From Anaerococcus urinomassiliensis (lineage in GTDB: Bacteria; Bacillota; Clostridia; Tissierellales; Peptoniphilaceae): a stretch of 64,000 nt of DNA. Shown one piece after another: positions 9,207 through 62,837 of the stretch. The notes beneath the pieces were generated by a model. The model saw only the letters and a program-made list of their open reading frames with translations. It was not told the origin of the DNA and did no database searches. Position numbers and translations under genes: made by a program. Position 1 is the stretch's first letter. Each line of letters opens with the position of its first letter. Where the stretch lies: NCBI RefSeq assembly GCF_900128425.1, contig NZ_LT635782.1:1609776-1673775 (forward strand). The letters run 5' to 3'.

Positions 9207-9209
9207 ATT

Positions 9210-9245
9210 AAAAATCCCAAGATCTCAAAACGATCTTGGGATTTT
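9210..9245 (-). terminator. Terminator of the GH2 gene and intron insertion point
   Basis: AAAATCCCAAGATC (9245-9232) pairs with GATCTTGGGATTTT (9224-9211), a 14-bp stem with a 7-base loop, followed on the minus strand by TTAAT and then the first base of the group II intron. The stem is flanked by T on either strand and could work in both directions. Confidence 0.85.
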
Positions 9246-9259
9246 ATATTTCGAGGTAA

Positions 9260-12200
9260 TCATACTTTAAAATATTTCCTCAAAAGCTTTTTGTATGCAT
9301 TATCAATTTCTTCTTGAATTTTTGCATCTTCTATAACTTTTTTAGCTTCTTTTACATCGTCAGCTAATTTTTCTTTTAACTTGCTATTTTTTTCTATATT
9401 ATTTATTAATTTTTCAAGTTTACTAATGTTTAGTTTATTTTTCTTTGTTTCTAGCTTAGTCGATGCATCTTTTAGGTTAGATATTGCATTTTCTACTTGA
9501 TTCTTGCTTGGAGAATTGTCTCTTAAAACATTTTCTGCTTCTGTTATAGCATTGCTGTAGTTTTTCACAGATTCTTCTGTGTAGTTAACAGTATTCAATT
9601 TTGAAAAAATTTCCTTGTTGGTTTTTACTAGGGTCTCAAGATTGCCCTTGTCAACAACTCCATCTTTTCTTAAGCTAAAGACAGCTCTAGCTAAGTTAGT
9701 TTTTGCTCCGTTTACTTCTTTTTGGCTTGCGTTTTGATTATTAATGACTTTTTTTGCTTCATCTATTGCATTTTTAAGTTTTCCTTTGGAGTCTTTTGTA
9801 TAGCCGTTCATTCTCAAGTATTTATTAGCCTGATTAATAGACTTTTCTAAGCTACTTTTGTCCACCGGATCAATTTTTATGGTAAATGTTCTCCTATTTT
9901 GTCCATTCTCGGATTCTAGGATTATTACTTTGGTCAATTGATCGACATCTACTAAAGTATATGAAGCATTTTCTTTGGTTTTGATTTCTATGTCAGGGCT
10001 TTTGCTATGGCTTAGATACTCATCTGCATTCATTTCTTCTTTTGTCAGTTCGTAGTCATCTATTATTAGGCTTTCAAATTCTGTTGACTCATAGCTTTCT
10101 TTGCTTGAGGATGCCTGTCTGATTTCAAGTTCTGATACGGCCATTGGATTTTCATCATTTCTTAGGCCGATTTTTATAAATGTAGCTTGAGTAGGATTAA
10201 AAGTTAGGTTGTATTTTAATATGCCATCGCTTTGTTCGCTAATTTCTGTTTTTGCATTTACTTCCTTATAGGAGTCTTTGGCTCCCGTTTCTGACATATA
10301 TACGCCAAGTTTTTCAGCTCCTTTATATTGACTATTTTGGGCAAAGTATAGGTCTATTTGACCAATTACTTGTTGTGTCGCGTATTCAAATATCAAATTT
10401 GCATCCTTTTTGCCAGATTCGAAATTTTTGATATTGGTCCATACATTTTCATCAGTTGGAGCTTTGATATCTATTTTACCGTCTACTAAGGCTTCTAATT
10501 TTCCTGAGTTTTTATCTTCTTCTAGGTCATGGGTCATTCTTATAGTATCTTTGGCAATATTTGCTCCTAATTTGACGGTTGGATCTGTGATTCTTATACT
10601 TGATGTTAGGTTGTAAGTTTTGCCAAAAATATTCGCTTTGCCTTTTTTTATAAGAATTCCAGGTCTTGAAACTTCTTCTTGCGTAATATCTTCCCATTGT
10701 ACATTAAAAGCTTGGTCTATTATTTGTCCCTTATTATTAATGGCAAGTCTACTTTTTGCCAAATCTGGTATTACTCCAACTAAGCTTGATGTTGAATGAT
10801 TTAATAGGGCAGATATTTCTTCAACTACTGTCAGTTTTACAGATATTTCGTCATTGTATTCTGTTAACCCTTTAATTTCATAAGAAGCAGGTCTATCAAA
10901 GACACTAGGGTCTATCTCTTGCCAATTAACCTTAGCTGAAACTTCACTACCATCTGCCATTATCGCAGGTATTGTTTCTGGTAAGTTTAATGAGCTACCT
11001 TGTTTTACCATGTAGTTCTTGGATAAATTGTAGTAAACTACACCTTGATAATCACTATCGTCATCACTAGCTTGTGAATTTATTGTTATGGTTTTGCTTA
11101 TATCCCCACTAGATGCCGTAATATTAATTGGGCCTTGATCATGGGTGGATTTTACTATTGCCACTAACCTACCAGCTAAGGCATTTCTATTGCCAGAATC
11201 ATAAGGTTGATGGTCTGCTTGGTGTCCATTATCTAGTCCCATAAGAATTCCATTGCCATCAACATTTACACTTACATTGTCATTTGCAGTAGGAACTATG
11301 TTTCCCTTATCATCTATTAGGTCAATTGTTATATAGGATAAGTCATTGTTGTCAGCTTTGATTGTTTCTCTATCAGCACTTAAATTTATATTTGTAAATT
11401 CTCCTGTTGTTTCCACCTTGTTTCTTCCAACAGTATCACTTACAATTTCATCGCCTCTGTAGCCAACGGCTTCTAGCAAGCCATCTTCGTAATCCAAATT
11501 AAATTCTCCGTATAGGGCTTTGAAATCGTCCTTTCCATCTACTGTTTTATAGGTAAATCCACCAGGGGTATGTTTTTCTACAAATTCTTGCCTACCTATT
11601 AGCCTTTTCTCTCCATTTTCTGGTGTGAAATATAATTCCACTTTGTCTAAATTTGTATAAACTACTATAGGTACATTTTTATCCCCTGATACTGCATCCT
11701 TATTCCAAGCTGGAAGAATGTGCAATGTGTCTACCTTGTCATTCCATTGAGATTGGTAGAAATAGTAGGAATCTTTAGCAAGCCCTGCTGTATCGATTAT
11801 TCCAAAGTATGATGATTTTGATGATGGCCAACTTCCTTGAGCTCCAGGTGTTATTCCATTCCATGGGGTTGGTTCTCCTAGGTAGTCAAAACCAGTCCAT
11901 ACAGCTTCGCCCATGACAAAGTCACGTGTAATAACGTCATACCAAGCTTCTGCTGCTAACGCTCCCCAACCAACTCTAGAATTGTCATATGATGTTAGAA
12001 GCTTATCAGAAGGAGTTTCAGGAGAGTAATTAAATGAACCAGTCCTTGTATAAACACCTCTGGAGTTTACTGATGATGCTGTTTCTGAGCCAAATAAGGT
12101 CCAGTTTGGATAGCTGCTGTGGATAGTATCATATCTATTTCCACCAGCATAATTTAGACCAACAATACCACCTGCATCTGTTATAATATTTGCCTGGTCG

Positions 12201-13729
12201 ACAATATCTCCTGCTAATCCATCCTTTAATTGATTGTCGCCCATTGTTACAAAACGTGTAGGATCAACTTCTTTTGCCCACTTTACTAAATTTTGCATTA
12301 TGGCTGGATATTCACTACGACGAATTCTTGCTGTTCCTTCTATGACTTCATTACCCATGGAGTACATCACTACTGATGGGCTGTTCATATCACGAGCAAC
12401 CATGGCCTTGATGTCGTATTCTGCCCAAGTCATATCTGGCTTTGTCGCAAGCATTTCATTTTCACCTATTTGATTTTCAAAATACTTAGAATAATCATTT
12501 TTATTAAGGTTTTTTGCCATAACCCAACCATCGAAGGCTTCATCTATCAACAACATTCCATGCTTATTAGCTATATCAATGAGCTCTTTACTTGCTGGGT
12601 TGTGGGTTACTCTTATGAGATTTACGCCCATATCTTTTAAAATTTCTACCTGACGTTCAATAGCCCTATAATATTGTCTAGCTCCTAAGGCACCTTGGTC
12701 ATGGTGCATACATACACCCTTGAGCTTTATATTTTCACCATTTAAGAAAAAACCTCTGTCTTTTGAAGTTTCTATCCATCTAAATCCATAGTCAGTATCC
12801 ACAAGATCTACATCTTCACCATTTTCTATGATTTTACTTTCGATTTTGTATAAATTTGGATTGTCAACATCCCAAAGTTTAATATTTGAAGCGATCAAAC
12901 CTTGCTCATCTTCTATAGAAGATTTTGCCGAAATTTTTATGGATTCCTTAGTACTTTCTCCTACTACATTTCCATCAGTATCTAAAAGCCTATGTTCTAA
13001 AGTAACTACTCTTTCATGATCAGATTGGTTTTCTAATTTTGTCTTTATATCCATAGTCACATTGCCAGCATACTCGTCAGCAAGCTTAGGTGTTTCTATT
13101 TTTATACCATTATGGCCAATATGGAGGTCATTAGTCGTAACTAATGTTACAGTTCTTGATATTCCTGAACCAGAATACCATCTACTTGTAGGAATGTCGT
13201 TATCTACGCGGACAGCTATTATATTTTCCCCTTGCTTTAAGTAAGGAGTCAAATCATAGGAAAAGGGTGTATATCCATATGGATGATCACCTAGTTTATG
13301 GCCGTTGATATAGGTTGTTGAGTTCATATAAACAGCATCAAAATTTATGAAGTATCTTTTTGCTTCTTCTAGACTAGGAATATTAAAACTCTTCCTGTAC
13401 CATCCAATGCCCCCTGGCTTGTAGCCTGATTCTGCCTCTGCCGATGTACTATAATCTTGGATTAATGAATAATCGTGTGGAAGGTCGACATTGGTCCAAC
13501 TAGCATCGTTGAAGTTAACATTTTGTGCATTTAATTGCTCGCCTAGTGCAAATTTCCAGTTATCGTTAAAGTTTTGTTCTCTTTTGCCTGAATAATCTGA
13601 TACATAGTATTTTTCTACATCAGATATGATTACGTTTTCATTTTTTGCAAATACTGGTCTAGCAAAGCCTGGTGCTAATAAGCCTAAACTTGTAAGTATT
13701 GCAAGTAGTTTTACGCTTGTTTTTTTCAT
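9260..13729 (-). CDS. Secreted multidomain GH2 beta-galactosidase (BgaA-like)
   Basis: This 1489-residue protein has a signal peptide (KLLAILTSLGLLAPGFARPVFA). The GH2 sugar-binding, Ig-like and TIM-barrel domains follow (residues about 50-620). The acid/base Glu461 is in YSMGNEV and the nucleophile Glu549 in LFGSET; RVTHNPAS and DEAFDGW are further GH2 landmarks. Ig-like and discoidin-like modules follow, and three FIVAR-type three-helix repeats fill the last 200 residues. There is no LPXTG anchor. The layout resembles pneumococcal BgaA, which removes terminal beta-1,4-galactose from host glycans, but the linkage is inferred. Start: ATG at 13729 with GAGG upstream. It shares this context with GH84 and GH85 genes upstream and has a cytoplasmic paralogue at 39.7 kb. 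Confidence 0.93.
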   Translation of the reverse strand: MKKTSVKLLAILTSLGLLAPGFARPVFAKNENVIISDVEKYYVSDYSGKREQNFNDNWKFALGEQLNAQNVNFNDASWTNVDLPHDYSLIQDYSTSAEAESGYKPGGIGWYRKSFNIPSLEEAKRYFINFDAVYMNSTTYINGHKLGDHPYGYTPFSYDLTPYLKQGENIIAVRVDNDIPTSRWYSGSGISRTVTLVTTNDLHIGHNGIKIETPKLADEYAGNVTMDIKTKLENQSDHERVVTLEHRLLDTDGNVVGESTKESIKISAKSSIEDEQGLIASNIKLWDVDNPNLYKIESKIIENGEDVDLVDTDYGFRWIETSKDRGFFLNGENIKLKGVCMHHDQGALGARQYYRAIERQVEILKDMGVNLIRVTHNPASKELIDIANKHGMLLIDEAFDGWVMAKNLNKNDYSKYFENQIGENEMLATKPDMTWAEYDIKAMVARDMNSPSVVMYSMGNEVIEGTARIRRSEYPAIMQNLVKWAKEVDPTRFVTMGDNQLKDGLAGDIVDQANIITDAGGIVGLNYAGGNRYDTIHSSYPNWTLFGSETASSVNSRGVYTRTGSFNYSPETPSDKLLTSYDNSRVGWGALAAEAWYDVITRDFVMGEAVWTGFDYLGEPTPWNGITPGAQGSWPSSKSSYFGIIDTAGLAKDSYYFYQSQWNDKVDTLHILPAWNKDAVSGDKNVPIVVYTNLDKVELYFTPENGEKRLIGRQEFVEKHTPGGFTYKTVDGKDDFKALYGEFNLDYEDGLLEAVGYRGDEIVSDTVGRNKVETTGEFTNINLSADRETIKADNNDLSYITIDLIDDKGNIVPTANDNVSVNVDGNGILMGLDNGHQADHQPYDSGNRNALAGRLVAIVKSTHDQGPINITASSGDISKTITINSQASDDDSDYQGVVYYNLSKNYMVKQGSSLNLPETIPAIMADGSEVSAKVNWQEIDPSVFDRPASYEIKGLTEYNDEISVKLTVVEEISALLNHSTSSLVGVIPDLAKSRLAINNKGQIIDQAFNVQWEDITQEEVSRPGILIKKGKANIFGKTYNLTSSIRITDPTVKLGANIAKDTIRMTHDLEEDKNSGKLEALVDGKIDIKAPTDENVWTNIKNFESGKKDANLIFEYATQQVIGQIDLYFAQNSQYKGAEKLGVYMSETGAKDSYKEVNAKTEISEQSDGILKYNLTFNPTQATFIKIGLRNDENPMAVSELEIRQASSSKESYESTEFESLIIDDYELTKEEMNADEYLSHSKSPDIEIKTKENASYTLVDVDQLTKVIILESENGQNRRTFTIKIDPVDKSSLEKSINQANKYLRMNGYTKDSKGKLKNAIDEAKKVINNQNASQKEVNGAKTNLARAVFSLRKDGVVDKGNLETLVKTNKEIFSKLNTVNYTEESVKNYSNAITEAENVLRDNSPSKNQVENAISNLKDASTKLETKKNKLNISKLEKLINNIEKNSKLKEKLADDVKEAKKVIEDAKIQEEIDNAYKKLLRKYFKV

Positions 13730-49346: not shown

Positions 49347-51227
49347 TTATCCTTTCATAAATATTTCGCAAAATTCTAGCATATTTTTACTTTGTATAGC
49401 TTCGTCAACTAACTTTTCTTCTCCTAAAAACCTCCCCAATTTTTTATAGTATAGTTTCAAGTCTTCTTCACTATTGCCGACTATCAAGGAATACATAATT
49501 TGAATCTTTTCACCATTTTTCCACTTAATTGGCTTATCACTTATAATAATCACAGAAAAAGTATGGCTATCAGCTTGTTCCATCATATGGGGTATAGAAA
49601 TTTTCCCAATGCCGGTCGAGTTAAGCTCTTCTCTTTTTATCAACTGATTTTTTACATGAGACTTATCAAGTCCTGTTTTTTGGCTAATAGTTTTGGCCAG
49701 CAAGTCTATAGCACTGTCAAAATCATCTATCTGATCTGTGTGAATGAATATAGAGTTTTCAAAAATACTATAAATTTCTGCTAGTTCTTCCTGGTCAAAG
49801 GCCTTGTTGATATTCATATAATCTCTTTGTTTTAAAAGTATATCTACATAGACAATAGGAATGTCTGTTTCTATATTGAGGTCAACTGTGGAAATTATAA
49901 TATCATAAGCTTCTACAGATTCATTGTTAATCTTCGTAATATCTAATGTATCTAGTTTGTTGTAGGATCCTTGGAACTTATCTTCAATCTGAGCCTTTAG
50001 TAACCTAGCACTCGCGTTGCCAGACCCACAAACTATCAAAATGTTCTTCTTCGGAGATGATTTATCTTCCATTGATGCTAAAAGATGGAGGGCTATATAG
50101 CCAATCTCATCTTCTTTGATTATGGTATTGTATTTGTTATTGATAACACTTATGCCAATAGTTGCCAGATGGTAGGCTATTCCTCTAGATTTGATATCAT
50201 CTAGAATAGGATTTTTCATCTCAAAACCATATTTCATACGCTCAAGCAAGGCCGCCAAGTGCTGGCTTAGGGAAAGATACAAATCTATATCCCCTCTAAA
50301 GTCATATTTGCTTACCATATATATTTCTTCTAGCATATTTTCAGTAAGCTCTGTTATCTCAAGAGAAATCTTTTCTATATCACCAATCCTATTTTTGCTT
50401 ATAAGGTGCATGGCAATGTAGTGGATTTCATCTTGGGGAATAATTATATCGAGCCTTTGATTTAGCTCTTCTACAATCTTTTTGGCAAATTCGAATTCAT
50501 CGTATAGTATTACTTTGTTTTCAAGAGCGTTGGACAGATTTATAGTAATGCCCTGGTTAATCCTTAGTATGGCAATATATATGTGGATGATGAGGTTTTT
50601 GACCTCGACATAGGGCATATTAAATACTGGGTTGAAGTTTAGCTCTTCTACGACTTCTTCTATGGTATTTAAGATCTTTCTATCCTTGTCTATGTCAAAG
50701 ATGTATGATTCTTCCCCTATTTCATTTTTTATGGCAATTCTTATGTCTTTTTCATCGCCTATGATTTTCATACCATAGTGGGGTTTACTTGCTAGAGACA
50801 AGTTGTATTTTTCTAGTATCTTTTTTGTTTTCTTGATGTCTTTGTTTACTTGAGATAAGCTTAGGTGAAATTTCTCTGCTATATCCTGCTGCCTGATATA
50901 AGTATCTGAGAAGAGGAATAGCTTGATGATATTTTCTATCCTAAAATCTACCGAGCTATTGATTGAGTGATAGTAAGCGTATCTTCGCCAATCATTTATC
51001 AAAAACTCTGTGAAAGACTTCTCATCTACCACTTTAAATTTGTAACCCTTGCCCTTGGTCGACTTGATCTTTGCACCATTTTCTTTGATTATCCTGTTCA
51101 GATATGCTATTTCCTTTTTGACCGTACTAGGAGAAATCTCTAGGGCTGATCCTATTTCTTCAGATGTATGGTAGGAATCATCAGCAGACAAGTAATCAAA
51201 TATTTCTTTTTGTCTAGTTTCAATCAT
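49347..51227 (-). CDS. PRD-containing transcriptional activator with IIB and IIA domains, second module
   Basis: The 626-residue paralogue of the regulator at 30.2 kb has HTH segments (TSEEIGSALEISPSTVKKEI and RQQDIAEKFHLSLSQVNKDI), two PRDs (LSQHLAALLERMKYG, GYIALHLLASME), a IIB-like domain with VCGSGNASARLL and a IIA domain with ISIPHMMEQADSHT. It overlaps the upstream GH123-like gene by 4 bases and the GH4 gene follows at once. It lies in the middle of the operon, not first. It probably activates the promoter upstream of the DUF624 gene. Confidence 0.93.
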   Translation of the reverse strand: MIETRQKEIFDYLSADDSYHTSEEIGSALEISPSTVKKEIAYLNRIIKENGAKIKSTKGKGYKFKVVDEKSFTEFLINDWRRYAYYHSINSSVDFRIENIIKLFLFSDTYIRQQDIAEKFHLSLSQVNKDIKKTKKILEKYNLSLASKPHYGMKIIGDEKDIRIAIKNEIGEESYIFDIDKDRKILNTIEEVVEELNFNPVFNMPYVEVKNLIIHIYIAILRINQGITINLSNALENKVILYDEFEFAKKIVEELNQRLDIIIPQDEIHYIAMHLISKNRIGDIEKISLEITELTENMLEEIYMVSKYDFRGDIDLYLSLSQHLAALLERMKYGFEMKNPILDDIKSRGIAYHLATIGISVINNKYNTIIKEDEIGYIALHLLASMEDKSSPKKNILIVCGSGNASARLLKAQIEDKFQGSYNKLDTLDITKINNESVEAYDIIISTVDLNIETDIPIVYVDILLKQRDYMNINKAFDQEELAEIYSIFENSIFIHTDQIDDFDSAIDLLAKTISQKTGLDKSHVKNQLIKREELNSTGIGKISIPHMMEQADSHTFSVIIISDKPIKWKNGEKIQIMYSLIVGNSEEDLKLYYKKLGRFLGEEKLVDEAIQSKNMLEFCEIFMKG

Positions 51228-52915
51228 ATCTCTAGTTTCTTACTATATTCATAAATAGAATTGTAAATATCTATGACTTCGTCATATAGGTCGTCTCTGA
51301 CCTTTTCGTCAGCTTCTTTTGTCCCCATAGAAGTACTTATATAAGCTTTTGGACTCATAGTTTTGATTTTTGATATAAATTCTTTTTTGTCATCTTCGTT
51401 CAAATTTTCTATTAGATAGTTAATCTTACCTATCATAGACCTTGCATATCTTAAATGTTCAAATCTTGGTGATGTGCGTGGTTTTTTGACTTTTTGATCT
51501 AATTCTTCAGGATAGATCAAAAATGCATCTCCTGCTTCCCGCCACCAGTGGCTGGTATCTGCTAGGGGTTCTTTGACCCAAGCATCGAGGGCCCATCTCA
51601 AATATCCATTAGCATTTATAGAATTTGCATAAAGTATAGTCCAATCACTTTCAATTGGCATAGATCTGGCAAAAGAATTTGGATACATACCTGTGCAAGT
51701 ATAGATTGTCGTAAGTTTGTCCCCACGTTTGTCTATATAGGCCTTGTTTTCATCGTTAATATCTACAAAGCCAAAGGATATATCATCAAGTCTATCGTAT
51801 ATGTCTACATAACCTGGTTTATATCCCAATTGACTGGCGATTTTTAGAGTCTTGCCGTCCTTGTTTTTATGTTTGGATAAAACTTTTAGCACAGCATCTA
51901 ATATGTCTGGACTTCTCTCGTCTACTGCTATATAGGTGATGTCAAAGTATCCTTTAGAATCCAAATGGTCTATAAAGATATCCAAGAAATAATCCCAATA
52001 TTCTTCCCATTCTTTACTTCCTGGCTTGAGCCCTAAAACCAATCCCTCATCTTTTCTGTCATTTTCATACCAATCAGCCAAGGAAAAGGCCATAATTTGC
52101 TCATCTACTCCCTCAGCAATAGCCAAGTCTACGTAAGTGTCAAAATAGGTAAAGTCATAAGTAACTTCCCCATCTTTGGTAATTTCTCTTACCATGGATG
52201 GATATTTGTCATAGGTCTGCTGGTACCAAGGGTCATCTACAATGGTTGTAGTGATGGACGTGCCACCAATAGACTTATAAACTCTTAGGTGTTCTCTTAA
52301 TATGTCTAGATGTTTTTCTTTGAAAAGTTCGTCATCGCAAATCCCATAGTATCTAGCTACTGTAAAAGGATACTGCCAGAGGTTTATGGCGAAGTCATTT
52401 TTATCGGCTTCTAGGTCTATTACTTCAACTTCTATTGGTAGACTAAGATTAGTTCCTTTAATACTTATGTCGCCCTTATAAAATCCTGCTTTAGCATCTG
52501 ATTTTATAAAGATATAAAATCCTCGCAAGTTATTTTCTTCAAGGTCTGTTTTCTTAGTATAGTCCAATATATCTGGGATATTTTCCTTTGGAAAATCTGG
52601 CAAAACTCCCCATTCATAGCCAACACCTACAGAACATAGGGTATCCTTGGTAAATCTAATCTCTATATTTTTCTCTTTTATAGTATTTGACCCACAGATC
52701 AAATCGCTTACTTCTATTTCAATAGCAATAGGAGTAGTTGACTTGTTTAGTACTACATATTGGCCCATGTAATAGTCGTTTTTGTAAAGGAATTTCTTCC
52801 TATCTTCAAAGTCAAAATCTTTTTCTTTATACTTATAGAAGTCTCTTTTCAAATAATGCTTGCCAAAGTTTCCCTCAAAGAATAGCAAATTGTCGTTTTC
52901 AATATAGTTAGTCAT
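51224..52915 (-). CDS. GH123-like / DUF4091 glycosidase, intracellular
   Basis: The 563-residue protein has no signal peptide. An N-terminal beta-rich domain (about 40-165) is followed by a TIM-barrel-like domain with INLWQYPFTVARYYG, FDTYVDLAIAEGVDEQIM, and an adjacent acid pair Asp332-Glu333 in YIAVDERSPD. GH123 beta-N-acetylgalactosaminidases use such a neighbouring Asp-Glu pair (Asp344-Glu345 in the C. perfringens enzyme, from memory) for substrate-assisted cleavage. DWTILYANSINANGYLRWALDAW and DAFLIYP are typical of the DUF4091 C-terminus. The gene is coupled to the regulator and 1 base from the DUF624 gene. Removal of GalNAc from imported glycans is a reasonable proposal. Confidence 0.75.
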   Translation of the reverse strand: MTNYIENDNLLFFEGNFGKHYLKRDFYKYKEKDFDFEDRKKFLYKNDYYMGQYVVLNKSTTPIAIEIEVSDLICGSNTIKEKNIEIRFTKDTLCSVGVGYEWGVLPDFPKENIPDILDYTKKTDLEENNLRGFYIFIKSDAKAGFYKGDISIKGTNLSLPIEVEVIDLEADKNDFAINLWQYPFTVARYYGICDDELFKEKHLDILREHLRVYKSIGGTSITTTIVDDPWYQQTYDKYPSMVREITKDGEVTYDFTYFDTYVDLAIAEGVDEQIMAFSLADWYENDRKDEGLVLGLKPGSKEWEEYWDYFLDIFIDHLDSKGYFDITYIAVDERSPDILDAVLKVLSKHKNKDGKTLKIASQLGYKPGYVDIYDRLDDISFGFVDINDENKAYIDKRGDKLTTIYTCTGMYPNSFARSMPIESDWTILYANSINANGYLRWALDAWVKEPLADTSHWWREAGDAFLIYPEELDQKVKKPRTSPRFEHLRYARSMIGKINYLIENLNEDDKKEFISKIKTMSPKAYISTSMGTKEADEKVRDDLYDEVIDIYNSIYEYSKKLEI

Positions 52916-53823: not shown

Positions 53824-54645
53824 ATGGCAAAAATTATCGCACTTGACATTGATGGAACACTTCTAAATAGCCAAGGTGAGATTACAGATAGAACCAAAAA
53901 ATCTCTGGAAGATGCTCTCAAAGAAGGAAATATAGTAGTTATCGCTTCGGGTAGGGATCCAAAGGGTGTTTTCCAATATGCACAAATGCTTAAACTAGAT
54001 GAATACGACGGTCTACTTTCTAACTACAATGGCGCTAGAATCACAAATTATGGAAGTATGGAAATGATAATAAACCACACTTTGGACCTAGCTGATATGA
54101 AAGAGCTTTTGGAATTTTCTGAAGACCTTGATGATATGAATTACACCATATACTATGATGGAAAATGTTACACCAATTCTATGGATACTTACCGCTTAGA
54201 AGACACTCAGAAGAAAAACGATATGGAATTAATCTATGATCCAGACCTTAGCTATAATGTAGACTTTACGCCAAATAATGTTTTATTTGCCTGCCATCCT
54301 GACAAAATATCTGAGCCACTAAATAAAATCCACAATAAATTTTCTGACAAATTCACCCTTGTAAAGTCTACTCCATACTATTATGAAGTTATGCCAAAGG
54401 GAGTCAGCAAGGGCGAGAGCCTAAAGGAAATTGCCAAATACTACGACATTGCTATGGAAGATGTTATAGCCTTCGGTGATGAGGACAATGATTTGTCCAT
54501 GATTGAAGCTGCAGGAACTGGAGTTGTCATGGCAAACGGTTCAAAAGCCATGCTTGCAGTAGCTGATTATGTGACCTTGTCAAATGATGAAGATGGAATA
54601 GCTGATTACTTAGAAAAATTTGTCTTAAAGAAAGAGGAAAATTAA
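53824..54645 (+). CDS. Cof-type HAD-IIB sugar phosphatase, second copy
   Basis: The 273-residue protein has DIDGTLLNS (motif I), ASGRD (motif II), MPKGVSKG (motif III lysine) and FGDEDNDLSM (motif IV) with a IIB cap between. It is clearly related to the gene at 4.6 kb, with matching endings (YVTLSNDEDGI). AAAGGAGGG precedes the ATG. Its stop overlaps the start of the phosphofructokinase gene by one base, so it may balance the sugar-phosphate pool feeding that step. The substrate is unknown. Confidence 0.9.
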   Translation: MAKIIALDIDGTLLNSQGEITDRTKKSLEDALKEGNIVVIASGRDPKGVFQYAQMLKLDEYDGLLSNYNGARITNYGSMEMIINHTLDLADMKELLEFSEDLDDMNYTIYYDGKCYTNSMDTYRLEDTQKKNDMELIYDPDLSYNVDFTPNNVLFACHPDKISEPLNKIHNKFSDKFTLVKSTPYYYEVMPKGVSKGESLKEIAKYYDIAMEDVIAFGDEDNDLSMIEAAGTGVVMANGSKAMLAVADYVTLSNDEDGIADYLEKFVLKKEEN

Positions 54646-55865
54646 TGAATGCCATAATTGCCCAATCCGGTGGACCAACAAGCGTTATAAATTCATCCCT
54701 TGCTGGAGCCATTTCTGCCTTTATCGAAAATAATTTTGACCATATCTACCTTTCCTTAAATGGAATCGAAGGTATTATTTCAGGAAATTACAGGGAAGTT
54801 GATAAGGATAACTTTATAAGAAATAAAATAAGCGAAAAACTTTTGGCTCGCCCTTCATCAATCCTTGGTTCTTGTAGGTTCAAGCTTTCAGATGATATGG
54901 ACGATGAGAATTACAAACAAATCTTCCAAACCCTAGAAGAACTTGAAATAACAAGCCTGGTTTACATAGGCGGCAATGACTCTATGGATACAGTTATGAA
55001 GCTAAATTCCTACATGGTTTCTAACAATATTTCTGGCATAAATGTGATTGGTTGCCCAAAGACTATAGATAACGACCTCTGTCAGATGGACCACTCCCCT
55101 GGATTTGGATCTGCAGCAAAGTTCATCAACCATAGTCTCTTAACCTTAAGAACTGATGTAGATATCTATAATCTCAAATCCGTTACCTTTGTGGAAATCA
55201 TGGGAAGAAATGCCGGTTGGCTTGCAGCCTCATCTCTTCTTTCCAACCACCAAGCAGGAAAAGATGTTGTCAACCTATTGTATCTTCCAGAAGATAATAA
55301 GTCCTTAGATGAAGTAATAGAAGAAATCAAAAAGGCTCTAGAGAGTGAAAACAACCTCATAGTTGCTCTTGCAGAAGGCTTCAGAGATAGGGAAAGACTT
55401 CTCGATAAGCCTATGTTTTCAAATACCGATGATGGTTTTGACCACAAAATAGTAGCAGGAGTTGGCGAAAGACTTGCTGATATCATAAGAAGTGAACTAG
55501 AAATTAAATCTCGTGCAGTAGAATTATCCATACTTCAAAGGACAAATACCACAATCAGTAAAACCGATGCCAAAGAAGCCTACGAGCTTGGCTATAAGGC
55601 TGCAAAGCTATCAAAAGACAAAACAAATCTCATTCCAATACTAGTAAGAGAAGATTCCGATCAATACAAGGTCACATATACAGAAGTTAGACCAGAGAAA
55701 ATAGCAAACCTAGAAAAGAAAATCCCACAAGAATGGATCGAGGATAAAAATATCCTTAATGAAAAAATAGTAAACTACGCCTTGCCATTAATAGAAGGTG
55801 AAGTTAATCAAAAATACCAAAACGGCTTGCCAGTTTTTGTAAAACTTAAAGATTTCATTAAGTAA
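54645..55865 (+). CDS. pfp: Pyrophosphate-dependent 6-phosphofructokinase
   Basis: The 406-residue protein begins with the nucleotide-fold AIIAQSGGPTSVIN. Diagnostic residues favour PPi as donor: YIGGNDSMDT has Asp112 where ATP enzymes have Gly, and CPKTIDNDL has Lys139 where ATP enzymes have Gly. EIMGRNAGWLAA and a late RTNTTISKTDAKEA complete the active site. It makes fructose-1,6-bisphosphate reversibly from fructose-6-phosphate, the entry point for amino sugars processed by NagA. Translation is coupled to the upstream phosphatase. Confidence 0.9.
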   Translation: MNAIIAQSGGPTSVINSSLAGAISAFIENNFDHIYLSLNGIEGIISGNYREVDKDNFIRNKISEKLLARPSSILGSCRFKLSDDMDDENYKQIFQTLEELEITSLVYIGGNDSMDTVMKLNSYMVSNNISGINVIGCPKTIDNDLCQMDHSPGFGSAAKFINHSLLTLRTDVDIYNLKSVTFVEIMGRNAGWLAASSLLSNHQAGKDVVNLLYLPEDNKSLDEVIEEIKKALESENNLIVALAEGFRDRERLLDKPMFSNTDDGFDHKIVAGVGERLADIIRSELEIKSRAVELSILQRTNTTISKTDAKEAYELGYKAAKLSKDKTNLIPILVREDSDQYKVTYTEVRPEKIANLEKKIPQEWIEDKNILNEKIVNYALPLIEGEVNQKYQNGLPVFVKLKDFIK

Positions 55866-56591: not shown

Positions 56592-57371
56592 TTATCTAAT
56601 TGAAAATATTATCTCCTTTGCATAATTTTCTAAATAATATTTATAATTAATTTGATTATCTCCTATTATATCTACAATTGCTGAGCCAATAATTATTCCA
56701 TCAGAAATCGTAGATTTTATTTTAGCATCTTCACAAGTTCTAATACCGAATCCTATAGCTGTTGGTATGTCTCTAATTGATTTTACGCGATGTATTAATT
56801 CTTCTATTTCAGTAATACTATTTGATGAATTTCCAGTCTTAGTTCCACCAGCAATATAAATAAATCCATCACTAAGATTAGTTTTTGCTAATATTTCACT
56901 ATCTGACATATACGGATTAATAACACTAATAAATGAAATCGATGAATTTTCAAGATATTGTCTGCGTTCAGTATACCTATCATCGAATAAATCAGGTATA
57001 ATCATCCCATCAATTCCAATATCTTCGAACTTTTTTATAATGTCAAAAAATCCATATTCAGCAAGCACAGACAAATATGCCATTATGAGGATAGGAATAG
57101 ACAATTGGCTTTTAATTTCTATAATCAAATCAAAAATAGTTTCATAAGGAAAATTGTTTTTTAAAGCACGCTCATGAGCTTTTTTAACTGATGAACCATC
57201 AAGTGGTGTATTTATAGAAGGTAGACCCAGTTCAATAAGACTGGCCCCACTACATTCTAAAGTTTTTGCTATGTCAATCGTTGAATCATAATCAGGATCA
57301 GCTAACATTATAAAAGGAATAAAGACCTTCTTTGAAAATGCTTTTATAATTTTTTCGCTAGTTTTCTTCAT
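56592..57371 (-). CDS. TrpA-like TIM-barrel aldolase in a PTS operon
   Basis: The 259-residue protein aligns with tryptophan synthase alpha: VFIPFIMLADPDYDSTIDIA, SLIELGLP with Glu47 (equivalent of catalytic Glu49), PLDG with Asp58 (equivalent of Asp60), ILIMAYLSVLAEYGF, GIDGMIIPDL, and phosphate-binding GFGIRT and IIIGSAIV. Two conserved loops differ: PFSDPxADGP reads PSINTPLDGSS and the SRAGVTG loop reads AGGTKTGNS. No trpB or other tryptophan gene is nearby. It is the last gene of an ascorbate-type PTS operon, 8 bases after IIC. I infer a retro-aldol enzyme on an imported sugar phosphate rather than a tryptophan enzyme. Confidence 0.8.
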   Translation of the reverse strand: MKKTSEKIIKAFSKKVFIPFIMLADPDYDSTIDIAKTLECSGASLIELGLPSINTPLDGSSVKKAHERALKNNFPYETIFDLIIEIKSQLSIPILIMAYLSVLAEYGFFDIIKKFEDIGIDGMIIPDLFDDRYTERRQYLENSSISFISVINPYMSDSEILAKTNLSDGFIYIAGGTKTGNSSNSITEIEELIHRVKSIRDIPTAIGFGIRTCEDAKIKSTISDGIIIGSAIVDIIGDNQINYKYYLENYAKEIIFSIR

Positions 57372-57379
57372 CCTATCAC

Positions 57380-58654
57380 CTAAAATATTAATTTAAGGAT
57401 ATAACCTAGTAGAGGGCCATAGAAGCAGTAATCAGTCTCTGATAATATTCTCATTATAGGTTCGTATGACCCTACCATAGGCAATAGAAGTGCCTGACCG
57501 AAAATAAGTAATAATCCATTTATAGCAGATCCAATTATCGCTCCTCTTCTGCCTCCTGTAGCATTACCAAAAATAGCTGTAACAGCGCCAGTGTAAAAAG
57601 TAGGTATTAATGCTGGAAAAACAGGAACTGGATACTTCATAAGGCCTAGTATCCACATACCTATTAAGCCACTAACTAAACTTACTAAAAACCCTAGAAT
57701 TACAGAATTTGCATAATTTGGAAATAGTAGCGGAATATCTAACCCTGGTTTCGCATCTGGAATAATTTTGTTAGCTATCCCATGGAATGATTCAATGATT
57801 TCACTTAGCATCATACGCACACCAGTAATTGTAACAGTAATCCAAGCTCCAAAAAGTATACCATTTAATAGTGAGAAAATAAATATGTCTTGGCCAGCAG
57901 AAACATTTTCAGTTACCCAGCTTGGACCTGCAACAAGCGCTAAGGTAAAGAACAAGAAGAACATTACTACTGCCAACGATACCGTCATTTCTCTTAGAAA
58001 AGATACTTTTTTTGGTAACTCTATATCCTCAAGATCCTTCGATCTATCACCTAATCTTAAACCTAATTCTGATGCTAACAATATACCTATTGAAGATGAG
58101 TGACCAAGTGTAAAGCCTTCTCCACCCTTAACATATTTCATGTATGCATCAACATAGGCGCAGGTGAATGTCATATAAGCACCCAACAAAATTCCACCAA
58201 TAATTATAATTGCTGTGAATGATAATGATGTGTTGTATTTTAATAATGCCGCTATTAATCCAGAAAAGAAAAAAGCAACGTGAGCTGAAAGGTGAACATA
58301 TTTGAATTTTGTAAATCTAGCTAAAATTACGTTCATTAAAAAGCCAAGAGCGAATATCAAGCTCATTTCAGCACCTATGCCTGATAATGATTCTCCAACG
58401 GCTGCGTTTACATCAGCTGATTGTAAAGGTATACCAAATATTTTCCCAAAAATTGGCTGAAGTGGTAAAAGAGCAGAGCCTAGGTTCTTTCCTGATACGT
58501 CAATAAGTGTAAAACCAATCATTCCTTTAATAGCAGAACTAATAATCTTTTCTATAGGTTTTTTTTGAACAGCTTGTCCAAGAATAATTACTAAACCAAT
58601 AATGATTACAGGTTGACTTAAGAAGTTATTTATGAAATACATTAATCCTTGCAC
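57380..58654 (-). CDS. PTS ascorbate-class IIC (UlaA/SgaT family)
   Basis: The 424-residue permease has about 11 helices and family motifs: FLSQPVIIIGLVIILGQAVQKK at the N-terminus, KGMIGFTLIDVSG, VHLSAHVAFFFSG, GGEGFTLGHSSSIG and FGNATGGRRGAIIGS. UlaA-class permeases move L-ascorbate and, in other subgroups, other polar acids or sugars. It is flanked by its IIB (1 base upstream) and the TrpA-like gene. None of the usual ascorbate catabolic genes (lactonase, decarboxylase, epimerases) is present, so the substrate is probably different. Confidence 0.9.
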   Translation of the reverse strand: MQGLMYFINNFLSQPVIIIGLVIILGQAVQKKPIEKIISSAIKGMIGFTLIDVSGKNLGSALLPLQPIFGKIFGIPLQSADVNAAVGESLSGIGAEMSLIFALGFLMNVILARFTKFKYVHLSAHVAFFFSGLIAALLKYNTSLSFTAIIIIGGILLGAYMTFTCAYVDAYMKYVKGGEGFTLGHSSSIGILLASELGLRLGDRSKDLEDIELPKKVSFLREMTVSLAVVMFFLFFTLALVAGPSWVTENVSAGQDIFIFSLLNGILFGAWITVTITGVRMMLSEIIESFHGIANKIIPDAKPGLDIPLLFPNYANSVILGFLVSLVSGLIGMWILGLMKYPVPVFPALIPTFYTGAVTAIFGNATGGRRGAIIGSAINGLLLIFGQALLLPMVGSYEPIMRILSETDYCFYGPLLGYILKLIF

Positions 58655-58655
58655 A

Positions 58656-58937
58656 TTATCCCTCCAATTCTTTTATTTTATTTACTATCACATCTCTGAG
58701 TTCTTGCTTGTTTGTGAGATTAGAAACTTTTACTATTTTGTCCTCATAACCACTTAAAGCTTCTGAAAAATCAGAAGTTGGTATGATAATATCATAATCT
58801 TTTGGACTAAGTGATGTTATATCTGAGTTTTCTACACTTGCATCTATACCTTCAGCATCAACAATTTGTTGAGCGTAAAGTTTTGTCATTAAACTACTTC
58901 CTACACCACTAGCACATACAGCAATAATTTTGTACAT
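58656..58937 (-). CDS. PTS ascorbate/galactitol-class IIB
   Basis: The 93-residue protein begins YKIIAVCASGVGSSLMTKLYA, with the phospho-accepting Cys8 in the CxSGVGSS loop. It partners the IIC just downstream. It starts 9 bases after the IIA stop, behind AGGAGG. Confidence 0.92.
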   Translation of the reverse strand: MYKIIAVCASGVGSSLMTKLYAQQIVDAEGIDASVENSDITSLSPKDYDIIIPTSDFSEALSGYEDKIVKVSNLTNKQELRDVIVNKIKELEG

Positions 58938-58946
58938 AAATTCCTC

Positions 58947-59387
58947 CTAATTATTTAAAATCTTAAATATTTCTTCTTGATTATTTGAGTTTATCAGTAA
59001 TTCTCTATTATCATCTGAAGATAAAATCTCCATCAGATTTTGTAACAATCCGATATGAGATTCACTATCTTTGGCACAAAGACCAATTAACATCTTTACA
59101 GGATCATTATCTTTGTTTCCGAAGTTAATAGGATTTGAAAGACTTACAACGCAAGCACCAACCTTGTTAACCCCACATTCAGGTCTTGCATGCGGCATGG
59201 CAAGACCTGGAGCTATTACAATATAAGGGCCGTGCTCATTAAAAATCTCCACCATAGCATCAGTGTAAGTTGATTTTACCAAACCATTGTCCTCCATCAA
59301 GACACCCACAGCTCTAATAGCAGATTCTGGGTTTGTAGCATCAATATTTGTCTTTATATATTCTTTCTTAAAAAACTCTTTCTTCAT
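58947..59387 (-). CDS. PTS fructose/mannitol/ascorbate-class IIA
   Basis: The 146-residue protein has GPYIVIAPGLAMPHARPECGVN, in which His is the phosphorylation site of the PTS EIIA type-2 fold, and a C-terminal NLMEILSSDDN. It follows the regulator gene by 9 bases and donates phosphate to the IIB downstream. Confidence 0.93.
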   Translation of the reverse strand: MKKEFFKKEYIKTNIDATNPESAIRAVGVLMEDNGLVKSTYTDAMVEIFNEHGPYIVIAPGLAMPHARPECGVNKVGACVVSLSNPINFGNKDNDPVKMLIGLCAKDSESHIGLLQNLMEILSSDDNRELLINSNNQEEIFKILNN

Positions 59388-59396
59388 GTTATCCTT

Positions 59397-61304
59397 TCAT
59401 TTTTTATAATATAATTTTATAAGACTAGCAGCTTCTTTCTCACTTCTAACTTTAAACAATTTATTTCTAAAAATTCTGTCTGAAAACATATATGATAATT
59501 CGAATAGTGCCCTGCTGTGTTCATCTTTAGTATTTGCCGCCAGCATACATACAAAATAGATTTGTTCACCTTGATAATAGCAATTAGAATCTGTAATGAT
59601 TGCAAGAGAAAAAGCAGTTCTTATTACCCCATCATTTGCACCAGCATGTGGTAAGATTAAATTTTCTCCAATAATAATATTTTTGCTTTCTAGTTTAATA
59701 TTAGAAATTACTTTTTCTTTGTAAGTTTCCGTAATATATCCAGCTTCTATGAGTTGTTTAGATGATAAATTTATTATATCTTCTAAGTTATCGAAATTTG
59801 AAACTATATTTATAAAATTTTCGTTCAAATAATAATCTATACTTGGTAGAAACTTAAGATTAGGATAAAGTTTATTATTATTTATCTCTAAATAATTATT
59901 TTTAAAATTTCTATTACCTTTACTAATTAGAGAAGAATGGGCGGATTTTTGTAATTTATTCTTTATTTTGTAAATAGAATAATCTTCTAAATTAGGATTA
60001 ACTTTTATGATATTTGCCCCCTTTAACCAGATTTCTTCTGTTGAGATAATTATATCAATGGTTTCAATTTTGTAATTTTGTAAATTGTATATTGAGCAAG
60101 ATGTGATAGTTCTAAAATTAAATGCACCAATAAGTTTAGCTTTAATTAATTCACTAATTCCAACACCGTAGTTACATACTACAACACAATTCATATCTCT
60201 AATCTTATCTCTTATTAATCTTTCGTAAGACATATAAAAATATAAGTTTATAAAATTTAACTCAGAATCACTTATCGGTCTATTGTAATAAGAACTGGCT
60301 AAATTGCGAATTATTTTATCGCTGTGCTGTAGAAAGCTATATTCATTGTCTTCGTTGATATAAAATACATTGAAAGGGTGATGAAATGCATAATTTTCAT
60401 TTCTTTCAAGGTGTTGATAAAGACTTTCAAAAAGCTGGAAGTCTGAAGTGAAAGGTAAACCCGTTTCAAGTGAAACTCCTTCAATAATATCATTTGCTAA
60501 TATTTGAATAGGAATTAAATTATTAGTATCAGAAATATTAAAAACAAAATCTAAAGACTCTAAGAATGTATTTAGTTGATCAATTTCAGCTTTATTTAAA
60601 GCTATGTCTAAATCATTAAAAACCTTATAAGCAATATCGTGAGCCCAGTTATTCATTAATTTATTATTGATATATAAATCATTATCTTTAGTAGATATAA
60701 AAATGGTGAGTAATAAATACCACTTAAGCTTAAATCTTGAATATTCGAATATATTTATGCTATTTTCGTTCTCAAATTCTCCAATTATATTAATCAAAAT
60801 CTGGTGCATTTCGTCATAATTTATTCCAAATATTGACTGATATTGAAGATATGAGTTTATAAATATATTCAACAAGTGCGGATATGAATTTATCATATCT
60901 AAAAATAACAATTTAATTTCTAATTTCTGATCTAATATTTCTACGCCTCGACCAGGAGTAACGGATAGTATAATATCATTACTTTTTAGTTTTAAAGAAA
61001 GGTCTTTTATATCGTTTAGAACAGTAGACCTTGAAACATAAAGCATATTTGCTAAATCCTCTAATTTTATTGCCCTTATATTATTAAAGAATAATATAAA
61101 CGCTTCAGATATCAACCTTTCATTTTTTGATAGAGAATAATTCTGGTAGTTCATATCCATAAAAATCAAGTCTAAATCTTGATTTCTAGAGTATAGTATA
61201 TTATTGTCTAAATATAATGTTTCAAAATCATTGCTGCTCAAGAAATGATTTATTGCTGAAATGTCATTAATAACTGTTCTATAGCTAACTTTGTACCTAT
61301 TCAT
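59397..61304 (-). CDS. PRD-containing regulator of the ascorbate-class PTS operon (start probably upstream at 61373)
   Basis: From the first ATG (61304) 635 residues are read: an HTH half (VSYRTVINDISAI), a second HTH (LEDLANMLYVSRSTVLNDIK), two PRDs, a IIB-like domain with VVVCNYGVGISEL and a IIA domain with LILPHAGANDG. Upstream codons in frame give a missing first helix (RRFDILKNIVINDELELSEI), and the frame reaches an AGAGGTGA ribosome site where the only well-placed codon is ATA (61373). True length is therefore about 658. It probably activates its own operon through the TTTCAC repeats just upstream. Confidence 0.88.
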   Translation of the reverse strand: MNRYKVSYRTVINDISAINHFLSSNDFETLYLDNNILYSRNQDLDLIFMDMNYQNYSLSKNERLISEAFILFFNNIRAIKLEDLANMLYVSRSTVLNDIKDLSLKLKSNDIILSVTPGRGVEILDQKLEIKLLFLDMINSYPHLLNIFINSYLQYQSIFGINYDEMHQILINIIGEFENENSINIFEYSRFKLKWYLLLTIFISTKDNDLYINNKLMNNWAHDIAYKVFNDLDIALNKAEIDQLNTFLESLDFVFNISDTNNLIPIQILANDIIEGVSLETGLPFTSDFQLFESLYQHLERNENYAFHHPFNVFYINEDNEYSFLQHSDKIIRNLASSYYNRPISDSELNFINLYFYMSYERLIRDKIRDMNCVVVCNYGVGISELIKAKLIGAFNFRTITSCSIYNLQNYKIETIDIIISTEEIWLKGANIIKVNPNLEDYSIYKIKNKLQKSAHSSLISKGNRNFKNNYLEINNNKLYPNLKFLPSIDYYLNENFINIVSNFDNLEDIINLSSKQLIEAGYITETYKEKVISNIKLESKNIIIGENLILPHAGANDGVIRTAFSLAIITDSNCYYQGEQIYFVCMLAANTKDEHSRALFELSYMFSDRIFRNKLFKVRSEKEAASLIKLYYKK

Positions 61305-61426
61305 AATCTCTGATAATTCTAATTCATCATTAATAACGATGTTTTTTAAAATATCAAATCTTCTTGAGTTTATATAATCACCTCTACTTTCAATATAAGT
61401 TTATAATAAGATAAAGTTTATAACAA

Positions 61427-61543: not shown

Positions 61544-62837
61544 TTGTGTAAAAAAAGGCCATTTGAAACCCAAACTAGTGCAATGTTTTTAACCAACAAA
61601 AACAACTAGGAGCAATCAAATGACCCAATTACCCTTTACAATTAATCAAGAAGAAATACAAAATTTAGTTAATGCATCTGTAGATAATAAAATTGCTAAA
61701 TCTATATTAACAAAAGGTTTTAATGAACTTATGAAAAAAGAGAGGGTTTGATACTTAAAAACGAAGCTTACCAAAGGTATCCTAATAGAAGTACTTATCA
61801 TTATGGCTACTATGAACGTTACTATACAATAAAAATAAGAACATTAACTTTAAGAGTGCCTAGAACAAGAGATGGCAATTGCTCAACAGAAGTTTTTGAA
61901 AGATATCAGCGAAATGAAAAAGCTCTACTCTCAACAATTCTAGAAAGGTATGTACAGGTAGTATCAACAAGAAAAAGTATACAAGATAATAGAAAATATG
62001 CGTGGTAAAATATACTCCAAATGCTTTGTATTATATTTAACTAAAGATCTTGACTAAGAAGTGAAACTATGTAGAAGCAGTGACCTAAGCACAATAAAAT
62101 ATCCTATATAATTGTAGATGTAATATAAATAGAAGTTAGAGAAAACAATCGAGTAGTATCAGAAGATTGTCATAATGCAATAGGAATAAATGAAAAAGAA
62201 AATATAGAAATCATAGGCTTCGACCTAAGTTATAGTGAAAGTGAATATTCATGGATAAATTTCTTTTAATATTTAAAAGCCATAGAACTATCTGGACTTA
62301 AAATGGTAATATCAGATGCTCACAAAGGTCTAGTAAAAGCAATAAAGGAAACATTCGTAAATGTAATATGGCAAAGATGTCAGGTACATTTCTTAAGAAA
62401 TATCCTATCAAAAGCACCAAAGAAAAACACTGAAGACTTTAGAACTGATATAAAAGCACTATTTGAAATCCAGGATATAAACATAGCAAGAAAAATGAAA
62501 GACGAGATATTCTTAAAATACGAAAGCGAAAAGAAATTCCAAAACTCTTTAAACACCTTAGATGAAGGATTTGAAGATGCCTTTGCATATTTAGCTAATG
62601 ATGTAATTCATAGTAGACTTAGGTCAACCAATTGCTTAGAAAGATTAAATCAAGAAGTTAGAAGACGAGAAAAAGTCGTTAGGATATTCCCTAATGAAGA
62701 TTAAGCTATGCGTTTAATAACTAGCCAGTCGGCTTTGGGAGACCAATCCTCATTGATATCAATGAGGACCTCCTAACATCTTCTAAAATGTATATTAGAA
62801 TGAAATAGTAAATATTGTGCTAGTTTAATTTACACAA
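61544..62837 (+). mobile_element. IS256-family insertion sequence remnant
   Basis: The element is bounded by TTGTGTAAA (61544-61552) and its inverse TTTACACAA (62829-62837), 1294 bases apart, with a second shared block AAACTAG-(TG/CA)-CAA inside each end. A broken IS256-type transposase fills it. The flanks show no clear target duplication. It separates the PTS operon promoter from a gene remnant on the right. Confidence 0.7.
61620..62704 (+). pseudogene. IS256-family (mutator-type) transposase, degraded
   Basis: Pieces in order: a start at 61620 with MTQLPFTINQEEIQNLV to KKERV and a stop; a frame from 61748 with YQRYPNRSTYHYGYYERYYT and RVPRTRDGNCSTE ending at 62008; a gap of disrupted frames containing IIGFDLSYSESEYSW; and a frame from 62303 with MVISDAHKGLVKAIKETF, WQRCQVHFLRNIL and RLRSTNCLERLNQEVRRR. 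VISDAHKGL and WQRCQVHF are typical of the IS256 catalytic region. The stretch with the first catalytic Asp is corrupted. Several stops and frameshifts make it non-functional. Confidence 0.85.

Follow-up and report, generated by a model that had tools for sequence, protein, structure and literature searches.

A phosphotransferase operon ending in a tryptophan synthase alpha homologue recurs across bacteria and probably encodes an uptake-and-cleavage route

A 64,000-nucleotide stretch of the Anaerococcus urinomassiliensis genome (contig NZ_LT635782.1; hereafter the window) carries, on its minus strand, a compact operon of the sugar phosphotransferase system (PTS) that ends in a homologue of TrpA, the alpha subunit of tryptophan synthase. 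Its open reading frames (ORFs) confirm the arrangement described in the initial annotation, with a regulator followed by IIA, IIB, a UlaA-type IIC and, last, the TrpA homologue (Table 1). Starting from the TrpA homologue, the successive genes are separated by 8, 1, 9 and 9 bases. We take Cys8 of EIIB and His66 of EIIA to be the phosphorylation sites, as expected from the motifs in which they lie.

Table 1. Genes of the PTS operon in the window
Feature	Position	Strand	Basis and remarks
PTS-linked TrpA-like protein, 259 aa, proposed retro-aldol lyase	56592..57371	-	ORF, profile matches and alignment
PTS EIIC, UlaA/GAT family, 424 aa, GTG start	57380..58654	-	ORF and profile matches
PTS EIIB, 93 aa, Cys8 in VCASGVGSS	58656..58937	-	ORF and profile matches
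PTS EIIA (EIIA_2), 146 aa, His66 in MPHARPE	58947..59387	-	ORF and profile matches
Regulator, HTH_11 and C-terminal EIIA_2 domain	59397..61304	-	Pfam; start may lie upstream, up to ATA 61373

The operon is not confined to the window: a search for the gene order in other genomes recovered it in six other loci. The TrpA homologues fall into two groups. Group 1 comprises the window protein, P0002 (58% identical) and P0003 (57%), the latter two being its only close relatives among the matches listed from 5.8 billion proteins; the proteins that rank next (about 40%) have the loops of ordinary TrpA, and one of them is named Enterococcus cecorum. No further group-1 member was found in a class sample (391 genomes), a phylum sample (398), viral_contigs or genome_contigs (best 80 of 260 loci; best identity 39%). 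Plasmids held no TrpA more than 60% identical to the window protein, and a plasmid locus surfaced only through a tblastn search with the IIC, which led to Jeotgalibaca sp. MA1X17-3 (66% identity over 93% of the query). The order there is HTH protein, PRD-IIA protein, IIB, IIC and ‘tryptophan synthase subunit alpha’. This last protein (P0235, 233 aa) has 91 relatives at E ≤ 7.7e-26, followed by a jump to 1.2e-18 (best 120 of 1096), and we define group 2 as P0235 and its relatives down to E 7.7e-26.

Group 2 is taxonomically broad, the names among the matches listed including Carnobacterium, Enterococcus gilvus, Jeotgalibaca caeni, Alkalibacterium, Virgibacillus, Paraliobacillus and Cerasibacillus, and further a Lachnospiraceae isolate, Atopobium and Lancefieldella. 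Among the sampled genomes, group-2 TrpAs occur in G716 of the phylum sample, in whose own family the search covered G716 alone, and in 4 of the 295 genomes of an order sample (G975, G1009, G1043 and G1092; E ≤ 6.1e-85, next best 1.0e-51). We take this order to be Lactobacillales, on the grounds that Enterococcus raffinosus supplies the closest match to the G796 TrpA (47%) and that the TrpA of G1141 is almost identical to the one named E. cecorum. A clear group-2 TrpA was found in none of 220 genomes of a Lachnospiraceae sample (best E 2.7e-51), a label that rests on the 100% match of the G440 TrpA to Pseudobutyrivibrio sp. YE44.

The TrpA gene comes last in all seven loci with readable context, namely the window, the Jeotgalibaca plasmid, G716 and the four order-sample genomes, and in none of them does a further enzyme gene stand between the regulator and TrpA. 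IIA is a separate gene in the window and in G716; in the other five loci the regulator itself ends in an IIA domain. In the six loci outside the window, TrpA starts between a 1-base overlap and 3 bases past the IIC end, and the IICs are 54–68% identical to that of the window. Searches of an open-licence literature library turned up no description of a PTS-linked TrpA. The operon type is real and recurrent and, as far as these searches show, undescribed.

The window genome (2.19 Mb, 99.7% complete) encodes a single TrpA. No TrpB reaches the cut-off (best match 24 bits, 392 required) in a search whose control gave matches in 14 of 14 genomes, 13 of them over cut-off, and there is no indole-3-glycerol phosphate (IGP) synthase at E ≤ 0.001, a control for which was found in 14 of 14 genomes. 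The statement that neither trpB nor any other trp gene accompanies the operon was therefore borne out, and a reading of the homologue as an ordinary tryptophan gene is excluded in this genome. Of the 130 genomes in the family sample, nine have a TrpA at E ≤ 0.001; the window genome is the sole member of its genus among them, and the other eight proteins are at most 37% identical to that of the window.

The same separation from trpB is seen wherever the operon occurs. None of the seven PTS-linked loci has trpB within 3.5 kb, the G1009 locus covering only about 1 kb on one side, whereas trpB lies within that distance in 165 of 166 ordinary TrpA records of four sets (157 different proteins, counted by their last 150 residues): 80/80 in genome_contigs, 30/30 in the class and phylum samples, 30/30 in Lachnospiraceae and 25/26 in Lactobacillales. 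In the window’s family, 6 of 8 loci have it as close, as do 38 of another 52 records; 13 of the 14 misses among the latter are stretches of 1.1 kb. Among the five other operon genomes tested, TrpB over cut-off is absent from G975, G1009, G1043 and G1092. Only one TrpA per genome reached E ≤ 1e-36 in these four, though a weaker second copy might escape that limit. The fifth, G716, has a lone TrpB on another contig (L260, 9162-10370, plus strand; 58% identical to Enterococcus raffinosus TrpB), with no other trp gene recognised in 19.5 kb.

By profile, the window protein belongs to the TrpA fold family: it matches Pfam Trp_syntA (PF00290) with 182.8 bits and exceeds the curated trpA cut-off (TIGR00262, 159.4 bits against 102.35). 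A PDB search places LBCATS-a on top (41 log units) and plant BX1 as the second-ranked protein type (30–31). In TrpA, Glu49 and Asp60 form the catalytic pair and loops 2 and 6 must close, according to the available portion of PMC12930369, which also describes how loop 6 of the stand-alone enzyme BX1, put into TrpA, increases stand-alone activity; a hydrogen bond between Thr183 and Asp60 is given in an excerpt of PMC9512447. Aligned to Escherichia coli TrpA, whose numbering we use for the family, the window protein has Glu47 and Asp58 at the catalytic positions, keeps the GFG and GS phosphate motifs, and is changed in loops 2 and 6. Both halves of what had been noted from the sequence, a retained catalytic and phosphate-binding core and rewritten substrate loops, agree with this alignment.

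A survey of 197 ordinary, 3 group-1 and 93 group-2 proteins, in which the six commonest letters per position were counted and some counts are hence lower bounds, extends this pattern to both groups. What they share with TrpA is the active-site core: Glu49, Tyr102 and Tyr175 are invariant throughout, Asp60 is present in 3/3 group-1 and 92/93 group-2 proteins (ordinary TrpAs have 42 Asp and 155 Glu), and Thr183 (92/93), Phe212 (92/93), Gly213 (91/93) and Gly234 (93/93) are retained in group 2 and in all three group-1 proteins. Position 22 is aromatic (Phe or Tyr) in the PTS-linked TrpAs. What sets them apart begins with two new basic residues that adjoin the phosphate-binding glycines in sequence. 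Position 182 is Lys in 3/3 group-1 (window Lys178) and 88/93 group-2 proteins and in none of the 197 ordinary TrpAs, which have 188 Val, 5 Ile, 3 Thr and 1 Leu; position 215 is Lys or Arg in 3/3 (window Arg211) and 88/93, as compared with 158 Ser and at least 2 Lys or Arg (2 Arg) among ordinary TrpAs. At position 59, the Ala of ordinary TrpA gives way to Leu (3/3 group 1) or mostly Met (70/93 group 2). Asn104, invariant in the ordinary set, is replaced in 3/3 group-1 and at least 92/93 group-2 proteins by Ser, Ala or mostly Glu; this residue presumably touches TrpB in TrpA. The Arg aligned with E. coli position 186 (191/197 ordinary) is lost in the PTS-linked TrpAs. Group-2 proteins are also shorter, most having 225–252 aa, and in the seven loci a PTS operon takes the place of the trp operon.

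In a TrpA tree built with the loop-6 columns omitted (63 ordinary, 23 group-2 and 3 group-1 rows), the 63 ordinary rows lie on one side of a branch (98/98) and groups 1 and 2 on the opposite side, with supports of 100/95 for group 1 and 100/99 for group 2. Because the two groups share that side of the branch, one origin for both is favoured by the sequences. The best tree thus separates the window protein from housekeeping TrpA, but an approximately unbiased test also allows group 1 to stand next to four Lactobacillaceae TrpAs (p = 0.367), which would mean a separate origin of that group from ordinary TrpA. In a tree of 12 IIC rows, all those from TrpA operons come together (100/100); unlike in the TrpA tree, the window IIC falls with the Lactobacillales loci and that of G716 lies outside them (95/93), and the alternative is not rejected (p = 0.081). 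As the trees disagree and alternatives stand unrejected, partner swapping between IIC and TrpA may have occurred. The IICs of the window and Jeotgalibaca are 68% identical and their TrpAs only 25–28%, a gap for which we considered two independent recruitments of TrpA; this is disfavoured by the shared branch side of groups 1 and 2.

The position that the TrpA homologue occupies was compared with that in four related UlaA-type operons. In three of these, the nearest at hand, a class II aldolase or a transketolase takes the position downstream of IIC: the operons of G025 and G035, which belong to the window’s genus, close with a class II aldolase that exceeds the ketose-bisphosphate aldolase cut-off, and that of G133, from the same order, closes with a split transketolase. 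The fourth, a second operon of the window genome itself, has a SIS-domain protein. With an aldolase or transketolase in this slot of related operons, the TrpA-like protein is by analogy most likely a C–C bond enzyme. The scaffold of regulator, IIB and IIC and a terminal slot for one such enzyme are alike in G025, G035, G133 and the window; the enzyme family in the slot is unrelated, and their IICs are only 32–37% identical to that of the window. The two aldolase operons of the window’s genus (loci L263 and L264) contain a small ORF of 94–99 aa between IIC and the class II aldolase; the one in L264 (94 aa) shows nothing beyond an EAD11 match below threshold and a PWP3A-B_C match close to the cut-off.

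The transporter belongs to the EIIC-GAT/UlaA family, and as in the ascorbate system UlaABC its IIB and IIA are separate. The window IIC lies over the curated UlaA cut-off (NF006919, 398.9 bits against 380) and is 27% identical to E. coli UlaA, for which the available part of PMC6048161 names eleven ascorbate contacts and two further residues. Relative to that partial account, six of the eleven contacts are replaced, Thr86, Tyr87, Ile136 (Val), Gln139 (Phe), Gln195 (Ser) and Met410 (Glu), the alignment near position 410 being less sure; the same six are replaced in the four other IICs that cover all of them. In the window IIC, Tyr also stands at a seventh contact, Phe362. His135, His194, Asp314 and Ile358 are kept, as is Arg288, although the kept residues also occur in paralogues with other partner genes. 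Because its contacts are largely replaced, ascorbate is an unlikely substrate. In contrast to UlaABC with UlaD–G, the operon contains no UlaD, UlaE, UlaF or UlaG, and a PRD-type or HTH/EIIA regulator replaces UlaR. The earlier observation that known ascorbate genes are missing holds for the operon, as judged by ORFs and Pfam/NCBIfam matches, ulaD, ulaE, ulaF and ulaG not having been searched for genome-wide.

We consider it rather probable that the locus is a PTS uptake-and-cleavage operon, in which a stand-alone lyase of TrpA type cleaves a phosphate ester made by the PTS and probably releases glyceraldehyde 3-phosphate. The regulator would sense PTS phosphorylation, and IIA, IIB and IIC would take up a compound and phosphorylate it. 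Alone and without TrpB, the TrpA-like protein would then break a C–C bond by the acid–base chemistry of TrpA, with Glu47 and Asp58, most likely yielding D-glyceraldehyde 3-phosphate for glycolysis and a second fragment. The PTS would put the phosphate on a terminal carbon, and TrpA chemistry would cut the bond two carbons from the phosphorylated one; a sugar phosphorylated on C6 and split between C3 and C4 would share the three-carbon tail of IGP, a scheme drawn from the residues and from analogy. Lys182 could hold the negative charge of the substrate or an intermediate, or form a Schiff base. This cleavage scheme is the best supported reading but unproven, and we infer both the direction and type of the reaction and its glyceraldehyde 3-phosphate product.

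Several observations weigh against it. The nearest relatives of the window protein, P0002 and P0003, are known from proteins alone, without readable context. Lys182 is absent from 5 of the 93 group-2 proteins and is therefore not strictly required, which disfavours an essential Schiff base in those five. Frames are split in two of the seven loci, affecting the regulator and the 5′ part of IIC on the Jeotgalibaca plasmid (L135) and IIC, in two pieces, in G1009 (L249); this could mean decay or sequencing errors. Finally, a second UlaA-type operon of the window genome, with regulator, IIA, IIB and IIC (L167, G000:C10:1750000-1769900, 8751-13341, minus strand), ends in a SIS-domain protein and thus has no C–C lyase in that place.

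That second operon would suit an alternative in which the TrpA fold and phosphate site are kept for another reaction, an isomerisation, epimerisation or decarboxylation like those of UlaD, UlaE and UlaF. In the E. coli ula operon the PTS genes are followed by a decarboxylase and two epimerases, and loops 2 and 6, which shape the site, are changed; but the residues that serve C–C cleavage, Glu49/Asp60 and Thr183 (from the available portions of PMC12930369 and PMC9512447), are kept almost always, and one enzyme must suffice in seven operons, for which cleavage to central metabolites fits better than isomerisation. We regard a different reaction as unlikely, if worth keeping in mind. Quite improbable, in our judgement, is a stand-alone IGP lyase like maize BX1, for which the PTS would import an indolyl-glycerol-like aromatic compound and the enzyme would free indole. 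The aromatic pocket (Phe22, which is Phe or Tyr, with Tyr102, Tyr175 and Phe212), the rank of plant BX1 among PDB protein types and the lone TrpB of G716, which could use indole, speak for it. Against it, a TrpB that reaches the cut-off is missing from the window genome and from four of five others, and the lack of IGP synthase in the window genome argues against an endogenous IGP supply. We know of no PTS substrate of this kind. BX1 is a TrpA homologue that acts without TrpB and has a changed loop 6; it acts on IGP of its own pathway, whereas the window genome has no IGP source, and the BX1 loop-6 Arg linked to phosphate in the accessible text of PMC12930369 is lost here, its position being assigned by alignment.

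An ascorbate system in which a single lyase replaces UlaD–G would account for an IIC over the curated ascorbate cut-off and for the kept His135, His194, Asp314 and Arg288. Given the replaced contacts in the window and four other IICs (as far as PMC6048161 was available), the Tyr at Phe362 in the window and the presence of the kept residues in paralogues with other partners, we find it very improbable. Hardly credible, too, is an ordinary trpA that landed beside a PTS operon by chance and is now decaying. Its G+C content of 28.7% against 33.9% for the window, its place as the sole TrpA of a genome lacking the rest of the pathway, the Mutator-type transposase remnants upstream and its absence from other genomes of the genus in the family sample are all compatible with such an arrival, yet chance placement is disfavoured because six other loci share the order, and the open frame, the catalytic residues kept in all groups and the distinct tree position count against decay.

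Beyond the preferred reading of uptake and cleavage, a bolder version would have a TrpA-derived lyase family across Bacillota and Coriobacteriia act as a general aldolase that releases glyceraldehyde 3-phosphate, on a substrate with a planar, carbanion-stabilising ring and a glycerol tail, and with Lys182 forming or holding the intermediate. Such a substrate is hinted at by the retention of the aromatic pocket and by Phe at position 139 of the IIC, but we hold this undescribed route, as a whole, to be improbable. TrpA is among the best-studied biosynthetic enzymes, and if a coherent family of it has moved into PTS catabolism, one could follow in it, as in a natural experiment, how a subunit that relies on an allosteric partner turns into a self-sufficient enzyme with a new substrate. 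The public names of these proteins as tryptophan synthase alpha also credit pathway-less genomes with a tryptophan gene, and operon, regulator and single enzyme together would offer a handle on a nutrient of anaerobic and lactic-type bacteria.

The label ‘PRD regulator’ suits the relatives better than the window: a PRD domain is over cut-off in three of four scanned regulators of relatives and 0.2 bits under it in the fourth, and was not detected by Pfam at E ≤ 1 in the window protein. The regulator frame stays open above ATG 61304 with no ATG, GTG or TTG start (61305-61400, minus strand), and we are unsure whether the true start is that ATG or lies further upstream. A Shine–Dalgarno-like AGAGGTG precedes position 61373, previously given as the operon end, but the codon there is ATA, no standard start. 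A promoter scan did not rise above chance (46 promoter-like sites, 38.9 expected, sd 6.5), and a terminator scan found none. Just upstream of the operon lies a Mutator-family transposase gene in two pieces (Pfam Transposase_mut; 61748-62704, plus strand). On the other side, convergent with the operon, a Cof-type HAD phosphatase gene is directly followed by a gene of diphosphate-dependent phosphofructokinase type (NF010675, 374.7 bits, cut-off 273; together 53824-55865, plus strand), and a GH123-type glycoside hydrolase gene (Pfam GH123_cat) occupies 51224-52915 on the minus strand.

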